A stretch of DNA of 64,000 nt. Origin: Vibrio artabrorum. Its GTDB lineage: Bacteria; Pseudomonadota; Gammaproteobacteria; Enterobacterales; Vibrionaceae. The stretch lies in NCBI RefSeq assembly GCF_024347295.1, contig NZ_AP025458.1, positions 1,798,001 through 1,862,000 of the forward strand, written 5' to 3'. Made by a program: the position numbers and the translations under genes. Positions 52,110-62,655 of the stretch are shown here, piece by piece; position 1 is the first letter of the stretch, and each line of letters opens with the position of its first letter. The notes under the pieces were generated by a model. The model was not told where the DNA came from and did no database searches. It worked only from the letters and a program-made list of their open reading frames with translations.

Positions 52110-53411
<1,302 letters not shown>

Positions 53412-53460
53412 ACATTTTCGATTACGTCATAGTCGCGACACCGTTAGCACGTACTAAAAT

Positions 53461-53528
53461 GTCATCCTCAAGAGCGAGGAACGAGCGAGTTGGGGATCTC
53501 TTATCAAACACGATAAACGAGACTCCCT
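53461..53528. repeat. REP-like imperfect palindrome between cmoA and cmoB
   Basis: A GTCATCC start, then CCTC-N6-GAGG, GAGCGAG units, and near-palindromic arms GGGGATCTC and GAGACTCCC. Similar intergenic sequences with GAGCGAG...GGGGATCTC occur in Vibrio genomes as I recall them. Confidence 0.5.
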
Positions 53529-53597
53529 AGCCTGTTTGTCTACACTCTTAATCGTGTGACAAATTTAATTTCTACACCACCAACTCAGTGAAAACCT

Positions 53598-54569
53598 ATG
53601 TTTAATTTTGCCAATTTTTATCAACTTATTGCCCAAGATACTCGCCTTCAGCCGTGGCTCAATGTTCTGCCACAACAACTGACCGATTGGCAAAATGCAG
53701 AGCACGGCGATTTCGATCGTTGGTTACGTGCACTAAACAAGATTCCACAAGGTATGCCAGATCAAGTTGACCTGAAAAATTCAGTGACGGTTGGCAGCTC
53801 AACACCGTTTCACACCGGCGAGCTTAAAAAGCTAGAAAGCCTACTAAAGACCTTCCACCCATGGAGAAAAGGACCTTACACGGTTCACGATATTCATATT
53901 GATACTGAGTGGCGCAGTGACTGGAAATGGGATCGTGTGCTGCCACATATCTCTCCTTTGAAAAACCGTTCGGTTCTCGATGTCGGTTGTGGCAATGGCT
54001 ACCACATGTGGCGCATGCTGGGTGAAGGTGCTCGCTTAACGGTTGGTATTGATCCTTCCCACCTATTCTTGGTTCAGTTTGAAGCGATTCGTAAGTTGAT
54101 GGGCGATGACCAACGAGCTCACCTATTACCGCTTGGCATTGAGCAACTGCCAAAGCTTGAAGCCTACGATACGGTATTCAGTATGGGGGTACTTTACCAC
54201 CGTCGTTCACCACTGGACCATTTGATTCAACTGAAAGACCAATTGGTCTCAGGCGGTGAACTGGTGCTTGAAACTTTGGTTATCGAAGGCGACGAAAATG
54301 CGGTACTGGTACCGGTTGATCGCTATGCGCAAATGAGAAACGTCTACTTCTTCCCTTCTGCTCGCGCCCTGAAACGCTGGCTAGAGCAAGTGGGTTTTGA
54401 CGACGTACGAATCGTTGACGAAAATGTCACGACGATTGGTGAACAACGCACAACAGAATGGATGACACACAACTCTCTTCCAGATTACCTCGATCCGAAC
54501 GATCCAAGTAAAACCGTTGAAGGTCACCCTGCACCAAGACGTGCGATTTTGGTCGCAACAAAGCCATAA
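53598..54569 (+). CDS. cmoB: tRNA U34 carboxymethyltransferase CmoB
   Basis: Transfers the carboxymethyl group of carboxy-SAM to 5-hydroxyuridine-34 of tRNAs. It has 323 residues. The N-terminal helical domain has [13 protein letters not shown] and [20 protein letters not shown]. The SAM-like fold has [16 protein letters not shown], then [16 protein letters not shown]. It is followed by a terminator. Confidence 0.96.
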
Positions 54570-54727
54570 GATTGATTCACTCAACGACCATTTTTTGTAT
54601 TAACTTTGAGTCTAAATACACGTTAATTGTTTAAAAAACGACTGGTGTTTAATAAGTGAACAATTTGAATGCGCAATAATTGGCGTAACGCTCACATTGC
54701 GATTCAATATAACCAGACTCTTACAAT

Positions 54728-54751
54728 AGGATGCTTCACGCATCCTTTTTT
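54728..54751 (+). terminator. Terminator after cmoB
   Basis: AGGATGC pairs with GCATCCT around a 5-base loop, followed by five or six T. Confidence 0.85.
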
Positions 54752-54806: not shown

Positions 54807-55547
54807 ATGTTTAAGCGATTATCGCCAATTGTGGCGGTGGGTTTGCTCTCTGGCTGCACCCTCACAAATGGTGCAACCTACCACCAAGAAACTCTCGACG
54901 CTCTTTCTCGCTCAGAGACAAACATCGCAAATAGGGTTCAAAACCTTGAACTGAAAATAAGTAACCAAAATGACTATATTGAAAGTTTAGAAGGTGAAAT
55001 TACGGCTCTGTCTAACCAATTAGATGTCCATCTCACGAGAGTCGAAAATAAAGTCACGCAACAGTTAGAGAAAAAGAAACCCATGACCGTTGCTGTCGCT
55101 CCTATTCCACCCACTTCACAACCCACTATCCTAGGCGGAATCGAAAAGGTGTCTATCGACTTAATAGCACAAAGCTTTGATGCTCGAGTTGATACCGGCG
55201 CAAGCACTTCATCTTTAAACGCTGTCGATATCAAAAAATTCGAACGTAATAGCAAGAACTGGGTTAAATTTCACCTAGACGACAAAGCCCAAGCAGCAGA
55301 AGACAAAAAGTGGATTGAAGCGCCAATTCTTCGTTATGTGAAAATTCGTCAGTCAACCAATGCTCAGACAGAGCGTCGAGCTGTCATTGAATTGTGGGTA
55401 AAAGTTGGAAATATCCATGAAAAAGCGCAATTTACATTGGCGGATCGCTCTCAAATGACTCACCCTGTATTACTGGGACGTGAATTTATCAAAGATATCG
55501 CGTTAGTAGATGTAAGCAAAAAGTACGTACAAACGGAAGCTAAATAA
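54807..55547 (+). CDS. Lipoprotein with RimB-like retropepsin (ATP-dependent Zn protease) domain
   Basis: 246 residues. The signal peptide ends at the lipobox LLSGC (Cys17), and Thr at +2 favours outer-membrane placement. A coiled coil (about 30-90) is followed by a Pro-rich linker. A retropepsin-like domain (about 107-246) has the catalytic DTGAS (129-133). A conserved GREF segment lies near the end. The domain is the PF05618 type, often annotated ATP-dependent zinc protease, but its active site is aspartic. It is first in a cassette with the inactive transglutaminase (17 bases) and the ATP-grasp ligase. This suggests it cleaves a bond made by the ligase. Confidence 0.78.
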   Translation: MFKRLSPIVAVGLLSGCTLTNGATYHQETLDALSRSETNIANRVQNLELKISNQNDYIESLEGEITALSNQLDVHLTRVENKVTQQLEKKKPMTVAVAPIPPTSQPTILGGIEKVSIDLIAQSFDARVDTGASTSSLNAVDIKKFERNSKNWVKFHLDDKAQAAEDKKWIEAPILRYVKIRQSTNAQTERRAVIELWVKVGNIHEKAQFTLADRSQMTHPVLLGREFIKDIALVDVSKKYVQTEAK

Positions 55548-55564
55548 CAATAGTAGGGTAAGCT

Positions 55565-57070
55565 ATGACATCCAGAATTCCATTTTATATCTCTATTTTG
55601 CTACTCATTGTAGCAGGTATAACACTCAGTATATTTAGACATATGACCTACGGGGTACCGTGGACCCCAGGAGAAACCAAACAAATCTGGGACGTTGAAG
55701 CTCGAGTCGAGTTCAATGCTGTAGGCAAAGAAGCAAAAGTTTCGTTAGCGGCTCCTCACACTCAATCTAACTACACACTTATTGGCGAGTCAGCTTCCTC
55801 ACCGGGTTACGGTATTTCTTATTTAAATACGGAGTCTGGTCGCCGTGCAGAATGGTCGATTCGCTATGCCGACGGCCCGCAAACCATCTACTACAAAACA
55901 CAATTTTTAGTCGACAACCAAGCCAAAGTGGAGCATATCCCTCCAAAAGGTGAAATTGTACAGCCAAGCTTTGACGGCCCAGAAGAAGCTGCGGCTCTTG
56001 CGTTGATTGATCGAGCAACCAAACGCTCAGCAGATAACCTCACATTTACTCGTGAGCTAATCAAAACGCTTAACGATCCCGATAGCCAAAATTCAGCACT
56101 CATTCTGAACCACATGACCAAAGTAGAAGCCACACACAAGCTACTTTCAGCCGCAAAAATCCACAACAAAGTGGTTGGTGTTATCGAACTCGAGGATGGA
56201 CGTCGTCGTCAATCAATTCAAAACATGATCCAGATTTGGGACAATGAACAATGGATTCTATTTTCTCCTGAATCAAGCCAACAACAAATTCAACCAAATC
56301 TACTTATCTGGGATGAATCAAACGTCTCTTTATTGGATGTGGTTGGTGGTCAAAACAGTAAAGTGCATTTTTCAATGATTGCCCAAGAAGTTTCACCAAC
56401 GGAAGCAACCAACAGCAAAATTTCTTCGGACCAGCTATTGAACTTATCCATCCACAGTTTACCGCTAGAAGAACAAGCGATGTTTAAAACCATCATGCTG
56501 ATCCCCATCGGAGCACTGATTGTTGTATTCTTACGTGTCATCATTGGTTTGAAAACGTCCGGTACATTCATGCCGGTTTTGATTGCGGTCGCCTTTGTAC
56601 AAACACAATTGGTAACGGGTATTGTCGGCTTCCTATTGATCGTGGGGACCGGCCTTGTTATACGAAGTTACTTGTCCAAGCTCAATCTCTTACTGGTTGC
56701 CCGAATATCGGCGGTGATCATTACGGTGATATTGATTATTTCTGTGTTTACGGTGGTGGCGTTTAAGATTGGCCTAACAGAGGGGCTATCCATTACATTC
56801 TTCCCAATGATTATTTTATCTTGGACTATCGAACGTATGTCTATCCTTTGGGAAGAGGAAGGAGCGAAAGAAGTTGTGCTGCAAGGTGGCGGGTCTCTAT
56901 TTACCGCAGTGCTTGTTTACTTAGGTATGACGAACCCCTTCATTCAACATTTAACGTTTAACTTCATTGGTTTACAACTGGTTATTTTAGCAACCATACT
57001 GTTACTGGGTAACTACACGGGTTACCGTCTGACCGAGCTTCGTCGATTTAAGCCGCTAACGGAGGACTAA
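55565..57070 (+). CDS. Inactive transglutaminase fused to multi-TM domain
   Basis: 501 residues. TM1 (about 7-25) anchors a large periplasmic domain (about 30-305), which I assign to the inactive transglutaminase-like family by its place in this cassette and general sequence. I cannot see a Cys-His-Asp triad. The C-terminal part has about six or seven membrane segments (from IMLIPIGALIVVFLRVIIGL onward) with the conserved LKTSGTFMPVLIAVAF stretch. The likely role is a membrane receptor or scaffold for a peptide substrate. It lies 17 bases after the protease gene and 3 bases before the ligase gene. Confidence 0.75.
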   Translation: MTSRIPFYISILLLIVAGITLSIFRHMTYGVPWTPGETKQIWDVEARVEFNAVGKEAKVSLAAPHTQSNYTLIGESASSPGYGISYLNTESGRRAEWSIRYADGPQTIYYKTQFLVDNQAKVEHIPPKGEIVQPSFDGPEEAAALALIDRATKRSADNLTFTRELIKTLNDPDSQNSALILNHMTKVEATHKLLSAAKIHNKVVGVIELEDGRRRQSIQNMIQIWDNEQWILFSPESSQQQIQPNLLIWDESNVSLLDVVGGQNSKVHFSMIAQEVSPTEATNSKISSDQLLNLSIHSLPLEEQAMFKTIMLIPIGALIVVFLRVIIGLKTSGTFMPVLIAVAFVQTQLVTGIVGFLLIVGTGLVIRSYLSKLNLLLVARISAVIITVILIISVFTVVAFKIGLTEGLSITFFPMIILSWTIERMSILWEEEGAKEVVLQGGGSLFTAVLVYLGMTNPFIQHLTFNFIGLQLVILATILLLGNYTGYRLTELRRFKPLTED

Positions 57071-57073
57071 ATT

Positions 57074-58054
57074 ATGTTTGAGCAATTTACTTCACCGTTT
57101 AAGTTGAAAGACAAAGGCATAATGGGAATGAACAAGCGTAACCATAGTTATATTGGTCGCTATAATGATCGTTCTAAATATCCACTCGTTGATGACAAGC
57201 TTAAGACTAAAATCATCGCTGAACAGGCTGGCGCGACGGTTCCAAAACTGATTGGTGTTATTAGTCACCAAGCTGAAGTAAAAACAATACATAAGATGGT
57301 TAGAGAGTGGCCTGGTTTTGTAATCAAGCCGGCTCAAGGCAGTGGTGGGAAAGGTATCCTTGTGATCACGTCTCACAAAGATGGCGTTTATACTAAGCCA
57401 TCCGGTTCGACCATTAATAAACAAGATGTAGAGCGTCACATCAGTAACGCTCTGGCTGGTCTTTTTTCACTTGGTGGTAAAAACGACGTCGCCGTGGTTG
57501 AAAACCTCATCAAGTTTGATGAATGTTTCGACGGCTTTAGTTACGAAGGTGTGCCTGACGTTCGGATCATCGTGTTCAAAGGCTACCCTGTCATGGCAAT
57601 GATGCGTCTATCAACTTCCGCCTCGGACGGTAAGGCAAACTTGCACCAAGGTGCTGTAGGCGTCGGTATTTGTATCGCGACAGGTAAAGCCGTTCGGGCC
57701 GTTCAGTTCGACCATCCAGTCACTCATCACCCAGACACAGGAAAAGAGTTAGCGTTACTCAAAATACCACATTGGGAGAAACTACTGACGCTTGCTTCAA
57801 GCGCTTGGGAAATGACAGGCCTTGGTTATATGGGCACAGACATGGTTTTAGACCAAGAAGAAGGTCCTATGGTACTGGAGCTTAACGCACGTCCAGGGTT
57901 AGCAATCCAAATTGCAAATGGCGCAGGTTTACTGCCTCGCTTACACCATATTGAAAACCTTGGCATACCCGCTGAATATCCAAAACCGACAGAACGCGTC
58001 GCGTACGCCGCGAAACAGTTTGGTGTTCACGGCAATGAGCTTGCTTCAGACTAA
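57074..58054 (+). CDS. RimK-like ATP-grasp ligase
   Basis: 326 residues, soluble. ATP-grasp signatures are the P-loop-like KPAQGSGGKGILVI, a DVRIIVFKGYPVMAMMRLS segment, and the metal-binding MVLELNARPGLAIQIANGAG. It belongs to the alpha-L-glutamate ligase-like group (RimK relatives), which add amino acids to peptides or proteins. The acceptor is unknown. It is last in the three-gene cassette and is followed by a strong terminator. Confidence 0.8.
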   Translation: MFEQFTSPFKLKDKGIMGMNKRNHSYIGRYNDRSKYPLVDDKLKTKIIAEQAGATVPKLIGVISHQAEVKTIHKMVREWPGFVIKPAQGSGGKGILVITSHKDGVYTKPSGSTINKQDVERHISNALAGLFSLGGKNDVAVVENLIKFDECFDGFSYEGVPDVRIIVFKGYPVMAMMRLSTSASDGKANLHQGAVGVGICIATGKAVRAVQFDHPVTHHPDTGKELALLKIPHWEKLLTLASSAWEMTGLGYMGTDMVLDQEEGPMVLELNARPGLAIQIANGAGLLPRLHHIENLGIPAEYPKPTERVAYAAKQFGVHGNELASD

Positions 58055-58096: not shown

Positions 58097-58134
58097 AAAA
58101 AAACCGCATAACTCTGAGAGTTATGCGGTTTTTT
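58097..58134. terminator. Bidirectional terminator between the ligase gene and the FDH gene
   Basis: A long perfect stem pairs AAACCGCATAACTC with GAGTTATGCGGTTT around TGA, with A and T runs on either side. It serves the two convergent genes. Confidence 0.9.
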
Positions 58135-58167: not shown

Positions 58168-61100
58168 CTAAGCTTCTGTTGTTTCGGCTTCAGACTCTCG
58201 AATGGGATCAATGCGAACTGCCGCTACTTTAAACTCTGGGATCTTAGCATGCGGATCAGTTGCTGTCGTAGTTAAGCGGTTAACTGGAGATTCGACAAAA
58301 TGGAATGGAATAAATACCACCCCCTTTTGCATTCGCTTAGTTACAAATGCTGCGATTTCAATCTCGCCACGACGGGTTGATACTTTGAGTATCTGTCCAT
58401 TCGAGATACCTAACTCTTCAGCATCCTGAACACTGACCATTGCACGAGGCCCTGCCAAATTGTCAAGCCCTTGGGTTTTGCGTGTCATAGTTCCGGTGTG
58501 AAACTGCTCAAGAACACGTCCTGTGGTCAACACCAATGGGTAATCTTCATCGGGTAATTCTGCTGCATACCTAAACGGAATCGCCGCCATTTGACCGCGC
58601 CCACGAGTAAATTGGGTTTGGTGCATAATACGCGTGCCGTTTGGGTTATTCTTATTACTCGGCCACTGAACACCATTCGCGGTAATATTCTCCCAACGTA
58701 ACCCTCCATACTGCGGTGTTACACGAGCGATCTCATTGGTGATGTCAGCAACCGTATTATATGTCCAGTCGCCTCCCATGGCATTCGCCAATAGTTGAAT
58801 AATCACCCAATCTTCTTTTGCTTGACCCGGAGGATTAACCGCTGGATTAACACGTTGAACTCGACGCTCTGTGTTGGTGAAGTGACCGGATTTTTCAGCA
58901 AACGAACAAGATGGTAAAACCACATCAGCATACTGAGCCGTTTCCGTTAAAAAGATATCTTGCACCACAAGGAAGTCTAGAGTTTCTAGAGCTTCAATCA
59001 CGTGAGATTGGTTAGGATCACTGAGCACTGGGTTCTCACCCATGACATACAAAGCACGTACATCGCGATGACAGGCACCATCAATGATCTCAGTCAGCGT
59101 TAACCCCATTTCAGCAGGCAGCTCAGAAACACCCCACTCCATGGCAAACTTTTGACGAACCAGTGGGTTATACACTTTCTGATAACCCGGAAGGTTGTTG
59201 GGTAATGCGCCCATGTCGCACGCCCCCTGAACATTAGATTGACCGCGCAATGGGTTAATACCACCACCTTCAATACCAATATTGCCACACAAGAGTTGCA
59301 GGTTAGCGATTGAGCGAACATTATCGTGCCCAGTCGTGTGTTGTGTAATACCCATGGAATAATAGACAGCCGTACGCTCTGCCGTACCGATCAAACGTGC
59401 CATCGCAAAGATATCTTCGGCTTTAACGCCTGTCACCAACTCCACCTTGTCGAGTGAATAACTTGGTGACATGACCTCTTGAAGCAAAGTATCAAAGCCG
59501 TCCACACGATCTTCAATATAATCTTGATCATACCAACCATGTTTAATAATCTGCTGCATCACACCATTAATCAGCATCACATCGGTTCCCGGTCGATGTG
59601 CTAAATAAAGTTCAGCATGATCGGCAATATCGATCCTTTTCGGGTCAGCCACAATAAGCCGAGCCCCGCCATGCCTAACCGCTTGCTTGATATGCGAACC
59701 GATAATTGGGTGTGCCGCCGTGGTGTCTGACCCAATAATAAAGATCACATCCGAGTGTTTGATACTTGGAATATCATTGGTCATTGCCCCACTACCTAGA
59801 GAAGCTTCCAAACCTGTTACTGTTGAAGCATGACAAAGGCGAGCACAGTGATCGACGTTGTTGGTGCCGAGTTCACGACGAATGAATTTTTGAAAAGCAT
59901 AGTTATCTTCATTGGTCGTTTTTGCTGACGAGAACCCCGCCAATGCATTGCTACCAAAATCTTGCTTAATTGCGGTGAATTTATCAGCAATAAGCGTAAT
60001 CGCTTCATCCCAGCTCGCCGGTTGTAACTGGCCATCTTTGCGTATTAATGGCGTGGTTAAACGCGCATCACTTCCGACAAAGTCAAAGCCGAAGCGCCCC
60101 TTAACACACAACATGCCCTCATTTACTGGGGAATCACCGCCTTCGATATAACGGATTTTATTTTTCTGCTCATCGACATGCATGGTTAGCTTACAGCCAA
60201 CACCACAATAGGTGCAGATGGTATCGACTTTCTTAAGTACATCGGTGTCACCCTGTTTTCTATCACGAGCATCCACCATCGCACCAGTTGGACACGCCTG
60301 AACACATGAGCCACATTGAACACAGTTCGAGTCACCCATTACGGTCTTGTTTGCACCAAAATTAGGTCGACATTCAGGTCTTGATGCTGGCTTGCCATCG
60401 GATTGCTTCATAAAGCTCAGAACACCATGGACACTCTGCTCGCGACACGCTTGGATACACTGACCACAACTGATACAGCGGTTGGCATCAAAAATGATAA
60501 ATTCAGAGCTGTCATCGACCACGAATTTCTGCCTTGTAATGCCGTTCTTCGCTTCTTCAGCACGAATCGCCTGCCAACTTTCATTCGATGAGACATCGAT
60601 TTTGTATTCTGGATGTGTTTGCGTCGCTTTATATTCCGTCGAGTAATCACGTAGGTCACAGTCGGTATTAGCTTGGCAGCCACACTCTAAACATCTTGCC
60701 GCTTCTGCCATCGCATCGGCATTATCAAAACCGGTTTCTACCTCATCGAAGCTCTGCTCACGCTGCTCAGGGGTTAACTCTGGCATGATTCTGCGAGCCA
60801 TACGTTGAATGGATTGATACTGCTCAGGGTCAACTGCTTTTAGCTGCTTTTCCTTTCTTGAATTAAAGGGTTTCGTTGGGATATCATCCATATCACCATG
60901 AAAGAATCGGTCAATCGCTTGTGCAGCAATGCGCCCATCGCCCACCGCTTCTACTGCGGTGGCTGGGCCACGTCGGAAATCACCAATACTGAAAATATTC
61001 CCTGTTCCGGTATGCATAGTTTGTGGATTAGCATCAGCCGTATTCCAACGCGTTAAGGGAATTTCCAGTGGCTCATTATCCATAAAGCTCAGATCGGGCT

Positions 61101-62397
61101 TTTGTGACACGGCAGCAATCACCGTATCGAACGCCTCAACAAAGAACTCGCCAGTAGGTTGCGGACTGCGACGACCTGAAGCATCCGCCGGCCCCAGAGC
61201 CATACGTTCCAATCGAACTTCAGAGACACGACCATTTTTATCGGCTATGTTTTCTGCTGGGTTGGTTAAAAAGTGGAACTTCACGCCTTCATGTTCAGCT
61301 TCTTCGATTTCATAATCTTCCGCTGGCATCTCGTCTCGCGTCCGACGGTAAATTAGCGTGGTATCAGCCCCGTCACGAACGGCGGTTCGAGCGCAGTCAA
61401 TTGCAGTATTACCACCGCCAATCACAGCCACTTTTTGACCCGTAACATACTGCTTATCGGTCACGTAATCTTTTAGGTAATCAACGCCAAGATAACAACC
61501 ACCAAGCTCACTACCTGGATAGTTCATTTCAACCGCTTGCGATGCGCCAACCGCTAAACAAACCGCATCAAAATCTTGACTCAAATCAGACAGTGTAAAA
61601 TCGACACCGAGCTTTTTACCGCACTCAATATCCATTCCATTTCGACACATCAGCTCGATTTCTTTATCGAGTATCGACTTAGGTAAACGATATTCAGGAA
61701 TACCATATCGTAGCCAACCACCCGCTTGGGGCATCGACTCATAAACACAGACATCGTAACCTTCGTTCGACAGGTAATACCCAGCGGTAAGGCCACCGGG
61801 CCCACTACCAACAATCGCAATGCGCTTGCCTTTATTAGGTTTCTTTTCGGGTTTATAGCTCTCTTGAGCGGCTAAATCAGCGTCGGCAGCATGTCGTTTC
61901 AATTGGCGAATCGCGATGGATTCATCAACCAAGTTACGACGACATTCGGTTTCACAGAAAGCCGGACAAACACGACCAATCGAAAGTGGCATCGGCAGTG
62001 TTTTTTTGATCACTTCTATCGCTTTAATGTGATCATTTTGCGCAATATGATGAAGGTAAGATTGAATATCGACGCCTGCTGGGCAAGCCGTTTGACATGG
62101 CGCCTCACAGTCGGCGTAATGATCGACCATAATCCGGTTCAGAGCTTGTTGGCGATGGGTCGTTAATTGTTTTGACTGAGTATTGATATTCAATCCATTA
62201 GACACCTCTAGCTCACAAGAGCGTGTCACTCCCATCCCCTCGACTTCGACCACACACAAATCACACGGTACTTTATCCGCTGTTTTATTCAAACCACATA
62301 AAGATGGAATCTCTAAACCGCATGTTTTTGCCGCCTCAAGAACGGTCTGTCCTTGTTCGACAATCCGAAACTTACCATCAATGACGATCTGAATCAT
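58168..62397 (-). CDS. Formate dehydrogenase alpha subunit fused to NAD(P)H-flavin domain
   Basis: 1409 residues from the ATG at 62397 (AGGA 11 bases upstream; codons beyond 62397 lack similarity). An N-terminal [2Fe-2S] domain has cysteines around PSLCGLNKTADKVPCDLC. An iron-sulfur linker follows (HYADCEAPCQTACPAGVD). A GltD-like module has IVGSGPGGLTAGYYL (FAD) and VIGGGNTAIDCARTA (NADPH). Two [4Fe-4S] motifs are CISCGQCIQAC and CVQCGSCVQAC. The molybdopterin domain (about 720 on) starts with ICTYCGVGC. Its active site has Cys, not selenocysteine (NVDHCARLCHAS). No beta/gamma subunits or chaperone genes are adjacent, so it is probably a soluble NAD(P)-linked enzyme. Confidence 0.88.
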   Translation of the reverse strand: MIQIVIDGKFRIVEQGQTVLEAAKTCGLEIPSLCGLNKTADKVPCDLCVVEVEGMGVTRSCELEVSNGLNINTQSKQLTTHRQQALNRIMVDHYADCEAPCQTACPAGVDIQSYLHHIAQNDHIKAIEVIKKTLPMPLSIGRVCPAFCETECRRNLVDESIAIRQLKRHAADADLAAQESYKPEKKPNKGKRIAIVGSGPGGLTAGYYLSNEGYDVCVYESMPQAGGWLRYGIPEYRLPKSILDKEIELMCRNGMDIECGKKLGVDFTLSDLSQDFDAVCLAVGASQAVEMNYPGSELGGCYLGVDYLKDYVTDKQYVTGQKVAVIGGGNTAIDCARTAVRDGADTTLIYRRTRDEMPAEDYEIEEAEHEGVKFHFLTNPAENIADKNGRVSEVRLERMALGPADASGRRSPQPTGEFFVEAFDTVIAAVSQKPDLSFMDNEPLEIPLTRWNTADANPQTMHTGTGNIFSIGDFRRGPATAVEAVGDGRIAAQAIDRFFHGDMDDIPTKPFNSRKEKQLKAVDPEQYQSIQRMARRIMPELTPEQREQSFDEVETGFDNADAMAEAARCLECGCQANTDCDLRDYSTEYKATQTHPEYKIDVSSNESWQAIRAEEAKNGITRQKFVVDDSSEFIIFDANRCISCGQCIQACREQSVHGVLSFMKQSDGKPASRPECRPNFGANKTVMGDSNCVQCGSCVQACPTGAMVDARDRKQGDTDVLKKVDTICTYCGVGCKLTMHVDEQKNKIRYIEGGDSPVNEGMLCVKGRFGFDFVGSDARLTTPLIRKDGQLQPASWDEAITLIADKFTAIKQDFGSNALAGFSSAKTTNEDNYAFQKFIRRELGTNNVDHCARLCHASTVTGLEASLGSGAMTNDIPSIKHSDVIFIIGSDTTAAHPIIGSHIKQAVRHGGARLIVADPKRIDIADHAELYLAHRPGTDVMLINGVMQQIIKHGWYDQDYIEDRVDGFDTLLQEVMSPSYSLDKVELVTGVKAEDIFAMARLIGTAERTAVYYSMGITQHTTGHDNVRSIANLQLLCGNIGIEGGGINPLRGQSNVQGACDMGALPNNLPGYQKVYNPLVRQKFAMEWGVSELPAEMGLTLTEIIDGACHRDVRALYVMGENPVLSDPNQSHVIEALETLDFLVVQDIFLTETAQYADVVLPSCSFAEKSGHFTNTERRVQRVNPAVNPPGQAKEDWVIIQLLANAMGGDWTYNTVADITNEIARVTPQYGGLRWENITANGVQWPSNKNNPNGTRIMHQTQFTRGRGQMAAIPFRYAAELPDEDYPLVLTTGRVLEQFHTGTMTRKTQGLDNLAGPRAMVSVQDAEELGISNGQILKVSTRRGEIEIAAFVTKRMQKGVVFIPFHFVESPVNRLTTTATDPHAKIPEFKVAAVRIDPIRESEAETTEA

Positions 62398-62655
62398 AAC
62401 TAAGTCCTGCCTATATCTTTCACAAATTCGCGAGTTATCTACAACTGAGATTAAGTAATACAATATTTTTTAATATTATTAAATCTATATCAATACCATA
62501 CATTGATTCCGGTTTTGTGCGTGTGACCTCAAACAAGTTCCATTGATATTCGCCACAAGGTATGAGTGGTCCTATCAGTCATCAAAAATGCGCTCTGCGC
62601 CGTCGAATTAATGCTTGAAAGTAGAACCCATTGGAGAAAGCAAGATTCTAGGTAC
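62398..62655. other. FDH promoter region
   Basis: An AT-rich stretch (62460-62500) near the start and a half FNR-like TTGAT (minus strand near 62490) are the only features I see. There is no gene here. Confidence 0.35.

Follow-up and report, generated by a model that had tools for sequence, protein, structure and literature searches.

The window analysed here, a stretch of 64,000 nucleotides from contig NZ_AP025458.1 of Vibrio artabrorum, carries a three-gene cassette that we identify, with very little doubt, as the Vibrio rloABC operon. As delimited from the open reading frames and described with Pfam, NCBIfam and hydropathy, the genes lie on the plus strand and encode a lipoprotein retropepsin-like aspartic protease (rloA, 54807..55547, 246 amino acids), a membrane protein with an N-terminal helix, an inactive transglutaminase-like region and a C-terminal multi-helix domain (rloB, 55565..57070, 501 amino acids), and an ATP-grasp ligase (rloC, 57074..58054, 326 amino acids). 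The cassette itself is of an already known kind; what is new here is a sister clade whose RloB proteins have a Cys-His core and many of whose operons contain a TPR gene, in some cases together with a barrel-like gene. For rloABC as a whole, we propose that a polyglutamate-handling envelope system is the best explanation, and we give it slightly less than an even chance.

The rlo operon was named in Pseudomonas aeruginosa in June 2025 (Lormand et al. 2025, PMC12239564); our account of that report, here and below, draws on parts of it. Three redundant secreted RloA proteases are required in P. aeruginosa for growth at low osmolarity. In vitro, RloA cleaves reporters with 8 or 10 glutamates but not with 6 or fewer, and it cuts polyglutamate either inside or at the end of proteins. 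Without salt, the growth of a triple rloA mutant is fully rescued by deleting rloB, rloC or both, and this genetic evidence places RloB and RloC in the same process as RloA, upstream of the need for RloA (PMC12239564). The effects of the operon in P. aeruginosa extend to cell shape, biofilm and envelope stress, and rlo mutants show beta-lactam sensitivity and shape defects. RloC is predicted to reside in the cytosol, RloB in the inner membrane, and RloA in the periplasm or outside the cell. Orthologues were noted in V. cholerae, where VxrB, which has a link to cell-wall integrity, counts rloABC among its most strongly upregulated loci. The authors left the natural substrate of RloA open (PMC12239564), and the product of RloB and RloC is not identified in the literature that we found. 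An initial annotation of this cassette, made from the DNA sequence, had stated that no biochemical role was proven, which the published cleavage assays and genetics have made outdated; its suggestion that the system attaches and detaches amino acids in the envelope was right.

Identity and conservation of the cassette

The three reading frames are intact and separated by gaps of 17 and 3 bases, a spacing from which a single transcript may be predicted. A strong hairpin follows rloC (about 58098..58134, plus strand; folding z -6.0, with 0 of 200 shuffles equally good), in agreement with the earlier description of the genes as one unit. The three protein families and their order are those of P. 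aeruginosa rloABC, with an exported DTG protease, a dead transglutaminase joined to membrane helices, and an ATP-grasp protein.

RloA matches PF05618 (E 1.2e-46) and has relatives of known structure in the PDB (9g58, 9g59 and 2pma). Its active-site motif, DTGAS, occupies residues 129-133 (55191..55205, plus strand; sequence and PF05618 alignment). The initial annotation had taken the protease to be intact, and an alignment of 89 PF05618 proteins, comprising the window RloA, its two paralogues and 86 others, bears this out: the Asp, the Gly and a Thr or Ser between them are present in 89 of 89. In the published model, K46, R92, R114 and R137 of P. aeruginosa RloA touch polyglutamate, and the substitutions R114A and R137A each abolish rescue (PMC12239564). 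These contact residues are kept in the window RloA, where all four aligned positions are arginine, and the equivalents of R114 and R137 are found in 89 and 88, respectively, of the 89 proteins.

Judged by eye, RloA has an export-type start and a lipobox-like LLSGC ending at Cys17, followed by a linker (about residues 18-105) and the protease domain (108-244). The lipoprotein-type start and long linker distinguish it from P. aeruginosa RloA. A lipobox-like Cys, also judged by eye, is present in 19 of the 20 relatives for which longer upstream sequence was fetched, in most of them with a long linker after it; L148, L149 and L153 deviate from the strict motif and L161 is without one. The usual sorting rule for lipoproteins is that Thr after the lipobox Cys favours the outer membrane. 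Since Thr follows Cys17, the lipid anchor of RloA probably sits in the outer membrane. Residues 27-92 gave a weak, below-cut-off NCBIfam match to the secretion protein IcmG/DotF, and the linker may therefore be helical.

RloB is covered by two Pfam domains, Transglut_i_TM (PF14400, E 1.1e-55; residues 24-183, 55634..56113, plus strand) and 7TM_transglut (PF14402, E 3.5e-109; residues 255-498, 56327..57058, plus strand). Because the protein contains no cysteine at all, a Cys-type transglutaminase activity is impossible, and the region had been correctly called inactive. Four polar residues, R324, E423, R424 and R494, are invariant among 67 aligned sequences. The nearest named relatives are from Vibrio, with 93% identity to V. 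tasmaniensis and V. splendidus, which points to a Vibrio host. Several database entries label Vibrio RloB 'gonadoliberin III', the name of a vertebrate hormone and an evident misannotation.

RloC matches PF14397 (E 1.2e-100) and scores 551.8 bits against TIGR02291 (alpha-L-glutamate ligase-like), above the cut-off of 314.2. K85, D256, E269 and N271, which we take to be the ATP-grasp catalytic residues, do not vary among the relatives that have a residue aligned at the position concerned (122 or 123 of them). RloC has no evident signal, and single-sequence searches found no PDB relative of either RloB or RloC.

A co-occurrence survey of 299 Pseudomonadota genomes showed that the cassette is conserved, as the initial annotation had supposed, and that its genes are not usually apart. 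PF14402 (rloB) was found in 48 of the genomes; the 48 best PF14397 matches fall in exactly these 48, with rloC directly downstream on the same strand in every one, and the PF14397 score then drops from 197 to 166 bits. E. coli is one of the control genomes in which PF14402 had no match. PF05618 occurs more widely (98 of 299 genomes), being present in 44 of the 48 genomes that carry rloB and in 54 of the other 251. In 40 of the 48, rloA lies directly upstream of rloB; the remaining eight are G193, G087, G131, G172, G275, G060, G136 and G096. No further neighbour of the RloA-type loci recurred in more than 8 of those compared.

Individual loci have other genes next to the cassette. In two, rloABC is directly preceded by genes for a MATCAP metallocarboxypeptidase and for an ATP-grasp protein resembling glutathione synthetase (L042:248-2584 and L045:8893-11981); animal enzymes of the MATCAP family strip tubulin polyglutamylation (PMC10499314, consulted in part). 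In another, sugar-acid oxidase-type (ALO) and alanine-racemase-type genes lie 5' of the operon (L040:10070-12767).

RloB relatives with a transglutaminase core

A wider comparison comprised 125 loci, drawn from different samples that may partly share genomes; 80 named loci among them are the best 80 of at least 581 confirmed relatives of a Mariprofundaceae RloB and not a random sample. Cys and His are present at the transglutaminase positions in 21 of the 125 RloB proteins (19 distinct), four of which have Cys where others have Asp. One of them, from L063, matches the ordinary Transglut_core model of Pfam (E 6.5e-15). These active-type loci, L036-L039 and L062-L077, have no adjoining rloA and often have TPR and barrel-like genes next to them.

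None of the 17 testable active-type loci has rloA beside rloB (L070 and L073 end at a contig end), compared with 88 of the 98 inactive-type loci with enough upstream sequence; Fisher's test gives p of about 1e-13, for loci that are not independent on the tree. The active-site trait changes twice on the tree, once on well-supported branches. With two changes, the exclusion between transglutaminase and RloA does not consist of independent repeats and may be a single event. We therefore dropped it as independent evidence, as the tree allows one hand-over event. Left out were duplicates (L026, L038, L048), loci at contig ends (L070, L073, L112, L116, L130) and loci without the domain (L034, L035). 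The tree tally was 88/19/15, with L044 scored as having rloA; L089, scored inactive, has a Cys near the catalytic column and the His in place and is possibly a long-branched active form, and L071 and L072 have less than 1 kb of upstream sequence.

A profile search found no PF05618 match at all in 10 of the 16 genomes behind L062-L077, whose completeness is not given. In four of the remaining six, the PF05618 gene adjoins a RimK-like gene. One PF05618 protein, that of L170 in genome G302, shows by eye an export-like start; a secreted RloA may thus be encoded away from rloB in one of the active-type genomes.

Directly 3' of rloC, 13 of the 19 distinct active loci have a gene of the TPR cluster (568-913 amino acids; two of the proteins, from L063 and L066, were run through Pfam), followed in six of the 13 by a gene of the barrel-like cluster. 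The barrel-like proteins, of about 390-410 amino acids, have a signal-like start and a GYDSN-type motif, and they can be aligned from Mariprofundaceae to a metagenome-assembled genome (MAG) of Chlorobiota, with 19% identity between the latter protein and the first. No Pfam match was found for the five that were run, and a profile search found no PDB match for the family; 'barrel' is for this reason a reading of the sequence only. Similar-looking proteins are encoded after rloC in Aquimarina (L075) and before rloB in L034. In L034:5963-8958 and L035:6155-8919, a barrel-like gene of 314-315 amino acids comes before an rloB whose product has no transglutaminase region at all (373 amino acids long in L034). 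At one active-type locus, the place of rloA directly 5' of rloB is taken by a gene for a putative lipoprotein that carries an M14 zinc-carboxypeptidase domain (L069:6987-7937).

Literature searches turned up no description of the form that combines an active transglutaminase with TPR and barrel-like partners, although a study of ATP-grasp amidoligase neighbourhoods by Iyer et al. in 2009 (cited in PMC12096838) could predate our observation. Neighbourhoods of this type were reportedly described there, probably for the first time.

A polyglutamate-handling reading and its rivals

The P. aeruginosa genetics imply that RloB and RloC act where loss of RloA does harm. As RloC has no evident signal and keeps its catalytic residues whereas RloA is exported, the two can act on one product only if what RloC makes passes through the inner membrane. 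No other member of the set than RloB is a membrane protein, and we therefore favour cytosolic synthesis, RloB-dependent transfer and periplasmic trimming. That polyglutamate is the material handled is suggested by the retained Glu-contact residues of RloA, by the ATP-grasp residues and TIGR02291 match of RloC, and by the glutamate-type carboxypeptidases that adjoin the set (MATCAP in L042 and L045, the M14 peptidase in L069). We infer that polyglutamate is the product of RloC and is moved by RloB, that RloA works from an outer-membrane site, and that the function carries over to Vibrio.

The full mechanism, which we hold tentatively and at less than an even chance, would run as follows. Cytosolic RloC would use ATP to build an alpha-glutamate chain, either free or on an acceptor. 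RloB would pass the chain across the inner membrane or present it on the far side, its multi-helix domain working with RloC and its dead transglutaminase region serving as a periplasmic binding platform. RloA, as a dimeric aspartic protease on a lipid anchor and long linker, would cut the chain in the periplasm; without it, the product would accumulate and harm the envelope at low osmolarity. If true, the Gram-negative envelope would have a route to polyglutamate that relies on an ATP-grasp enzyme.

This scheme resembles PgsBCA/CapBCA, in which synthesis and export of a glutamate polymer depend on a cytosolic ligase together with a small membrane protein. The likeness is a works-like analogy of ligase plus membrane protein. 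PgsB/CapB is of the Mur-ligase type, whereas RloC is an ATP-grasp protein, and the window genome has no match to PF14102 (CapC type). A G...G...P look-alike motif had raised the idea that RloB is a CapC homologue, and profile-profile comparison did not support it: hhalign gave RloB a probability of at most 8% against domains of four tandem CapC proteins and 2.1% against a larger CapC profile (82 database relatives plus the tandem domains). The tandem type is seen in four genomes of one family (f32), where L049-L056 contain proteins of about 1,080 amino acids with two CapC-like domains; known entries for these bear names of the poly-gamma-glutamate PgsC/CapC type.

Several observations weigh against the polyglutamate-handling proposal. 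We know of no periplasmic glutamate polymer or polyglutamylated protein. PF14397 is called sugar-transfer associated, and the use of glutamate by RloC is deduced from its sequence. Transport by RloB is likewise a deduction, and the CapC kinship that would have supported export directly did not hold. Both RloA (110.9 bits for the best model, cut-off 210) and RloB (353.3 bits, cut-off 900) fall below the NCBIfam cut-offs, although these models are close to the Pseudomonas proteins and not defining. The window RloA has no Cys after the DTG motif and so lacks the disulfide cysteines of Pseudomonas RloA, which are described as conserved (PMC12239564), and 10 of the 98 inactive-type loci lack an adjacent rloA. 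Finally, in the triple rloA mutant, deleting rloB or rloC restores biofilm, antibiotic response and shape only in part, and mutants that lack just rloB or just rloC are themselves defective (PMC12239564); the RloB/RloC product is thus not merely harmful.

A related system, RimK-RimB, likewise combines an ATP-grasp ligase with a PF05618 retropepsin-like protease in polyglutamate chemistry (PMC11957791, consulted in part). It is cytosolic and has no membrane protein, whereas the rlo set has rloB between its two enzyme genes and an RloA that begins like an exported protein. The window genome has two further PF05618 genes, both on a second contig: a second lipoprotein-type RloA (L162:5105-5791) and a cytosolic-type RimB directly after RimK (L163:3146-4512), named by resemblance. 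On this naming, rim and rlo systems coexist in the genome. Given the second RloA, a single rloA deletion may be silent, as in P. aeruginosa.

The RimK-RimB precedent, which acts on RpsF in the cytosol (PMC11957791), brings with it the main rival, that RloC glutamylates one particular protein, which is then exposed on the periplasmic side, where RloA takes the modification off again; the target might be an envelope protein or RloB itself, at its cytosolic tail. RimB being a PF05618 relative encoded beside RimK in this very genome, and RloA cutting polyglutamate within proteins or at their ends in vitro (PMC12239564), both agree with this; yet no acceptor is known, the modified part must still reach the periplasm, and an exported product would better explain why sister operons contain TPR and barrel-like genes. 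We consider it unlikely.

The Pfam association of PF14397 with sugar transfer suggests instead that a sugar-containing envelope precursor (peptidoglycan or a lipid-linked sugar) receives an amino acid or peptide from RloC, is delivered by RloB and loses the addition again to RloA, polyglutamate being a stand-in. The beta-lactam sensitivity and shape defects of mutants and the VxrB control of V. cholerae rloABC would suit such a pathway. It is difficult to reconcile with the need of RloA for at least 8 consecutive glutamates in the reporter and for its Glu-contact residues in vivo (PMC12239564), with the conservation of these residues here and across relatives, or with the lack of any sugar-transfer gene among the recurrent neighbours of RloA-type loci, and we regard it as quite improbable. 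The invariant polar residues in the membrane domain of RloB, together with the equal rescue by loss of RloB or RloC (PMC12239564), could also mean that RloB itself is a membrane enzyme for which RloC merely supplies or activates a building block. The full ATP-grasp residue set of RloC speaks against this, as does the absence, in Pfam and PDB searches, of sequence resemblance between RloB and any known enzyme outside the dead transglutaminase region; we think it very improbable indeed.

The polyglutamate-handling proposal can be extended to the sister form, although the extension is doubtful. Here rloBC would be the core of a widespread trans-envelope system that uses the ATP-grasp ligase to make a polymer of alpha-glutamate or something similar and then exports it. 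Mariprofundaceae, myxobacteria, a Chlorobiota MAG, a Zixibacteriota MAG, Aquimarina and others would keep a working transglutaminase core, many with a TPR and outer-membrane barrel route. The branch containing Vibrio would have lost the active site, RloA carrying out the same periplasmic amide-bond step on a polymer that stays periplasmic. The comparison thereby yields testable predictions, namely that RloC makes a chain which RloB handles in the membrane, and that RloA stands in for a transglutaminase-type step apparently still encoded in the sister operons.

Flanking signals and genes

Between the upstream methyltransferase gene and rloA, a pattern scan found a terminator-like hairpin with a T run (54728..54751, plus strand; hairpin at 54728-54746 plus tail), which is retained in three of six aligned congeners (L142, L144, L147). 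A block at 54670-54720 (ATAATTGGCG...GCTCACATTGCGATTCAATAT) is well conserved in L144 and L147 and partly in L142, and is a possible promoter or regulator site. Ad hoc patterns of the response-regulator type had no match upstream of rloA in seven aligned upstream regions from the genus. Farther 5', at 52683-54569, are two methyltransferase genes, the second matching PF08003, which we take to be cmoA and cmoB.

In the hairpin 3' of rloC, the T run is base-paired with an A run; it is a probable terminator usable from both strands, and is absent from the terminator pattern-scan listing. A converging gene on the minus strand (58168-62463) could share it. This gene is a large molybdopterin oxidoreductase reading frame of 1431 amino acids with FAD/NAD-binding and iron-sulfur domains (Pfam), presumably formate-dehydrogenase-like.

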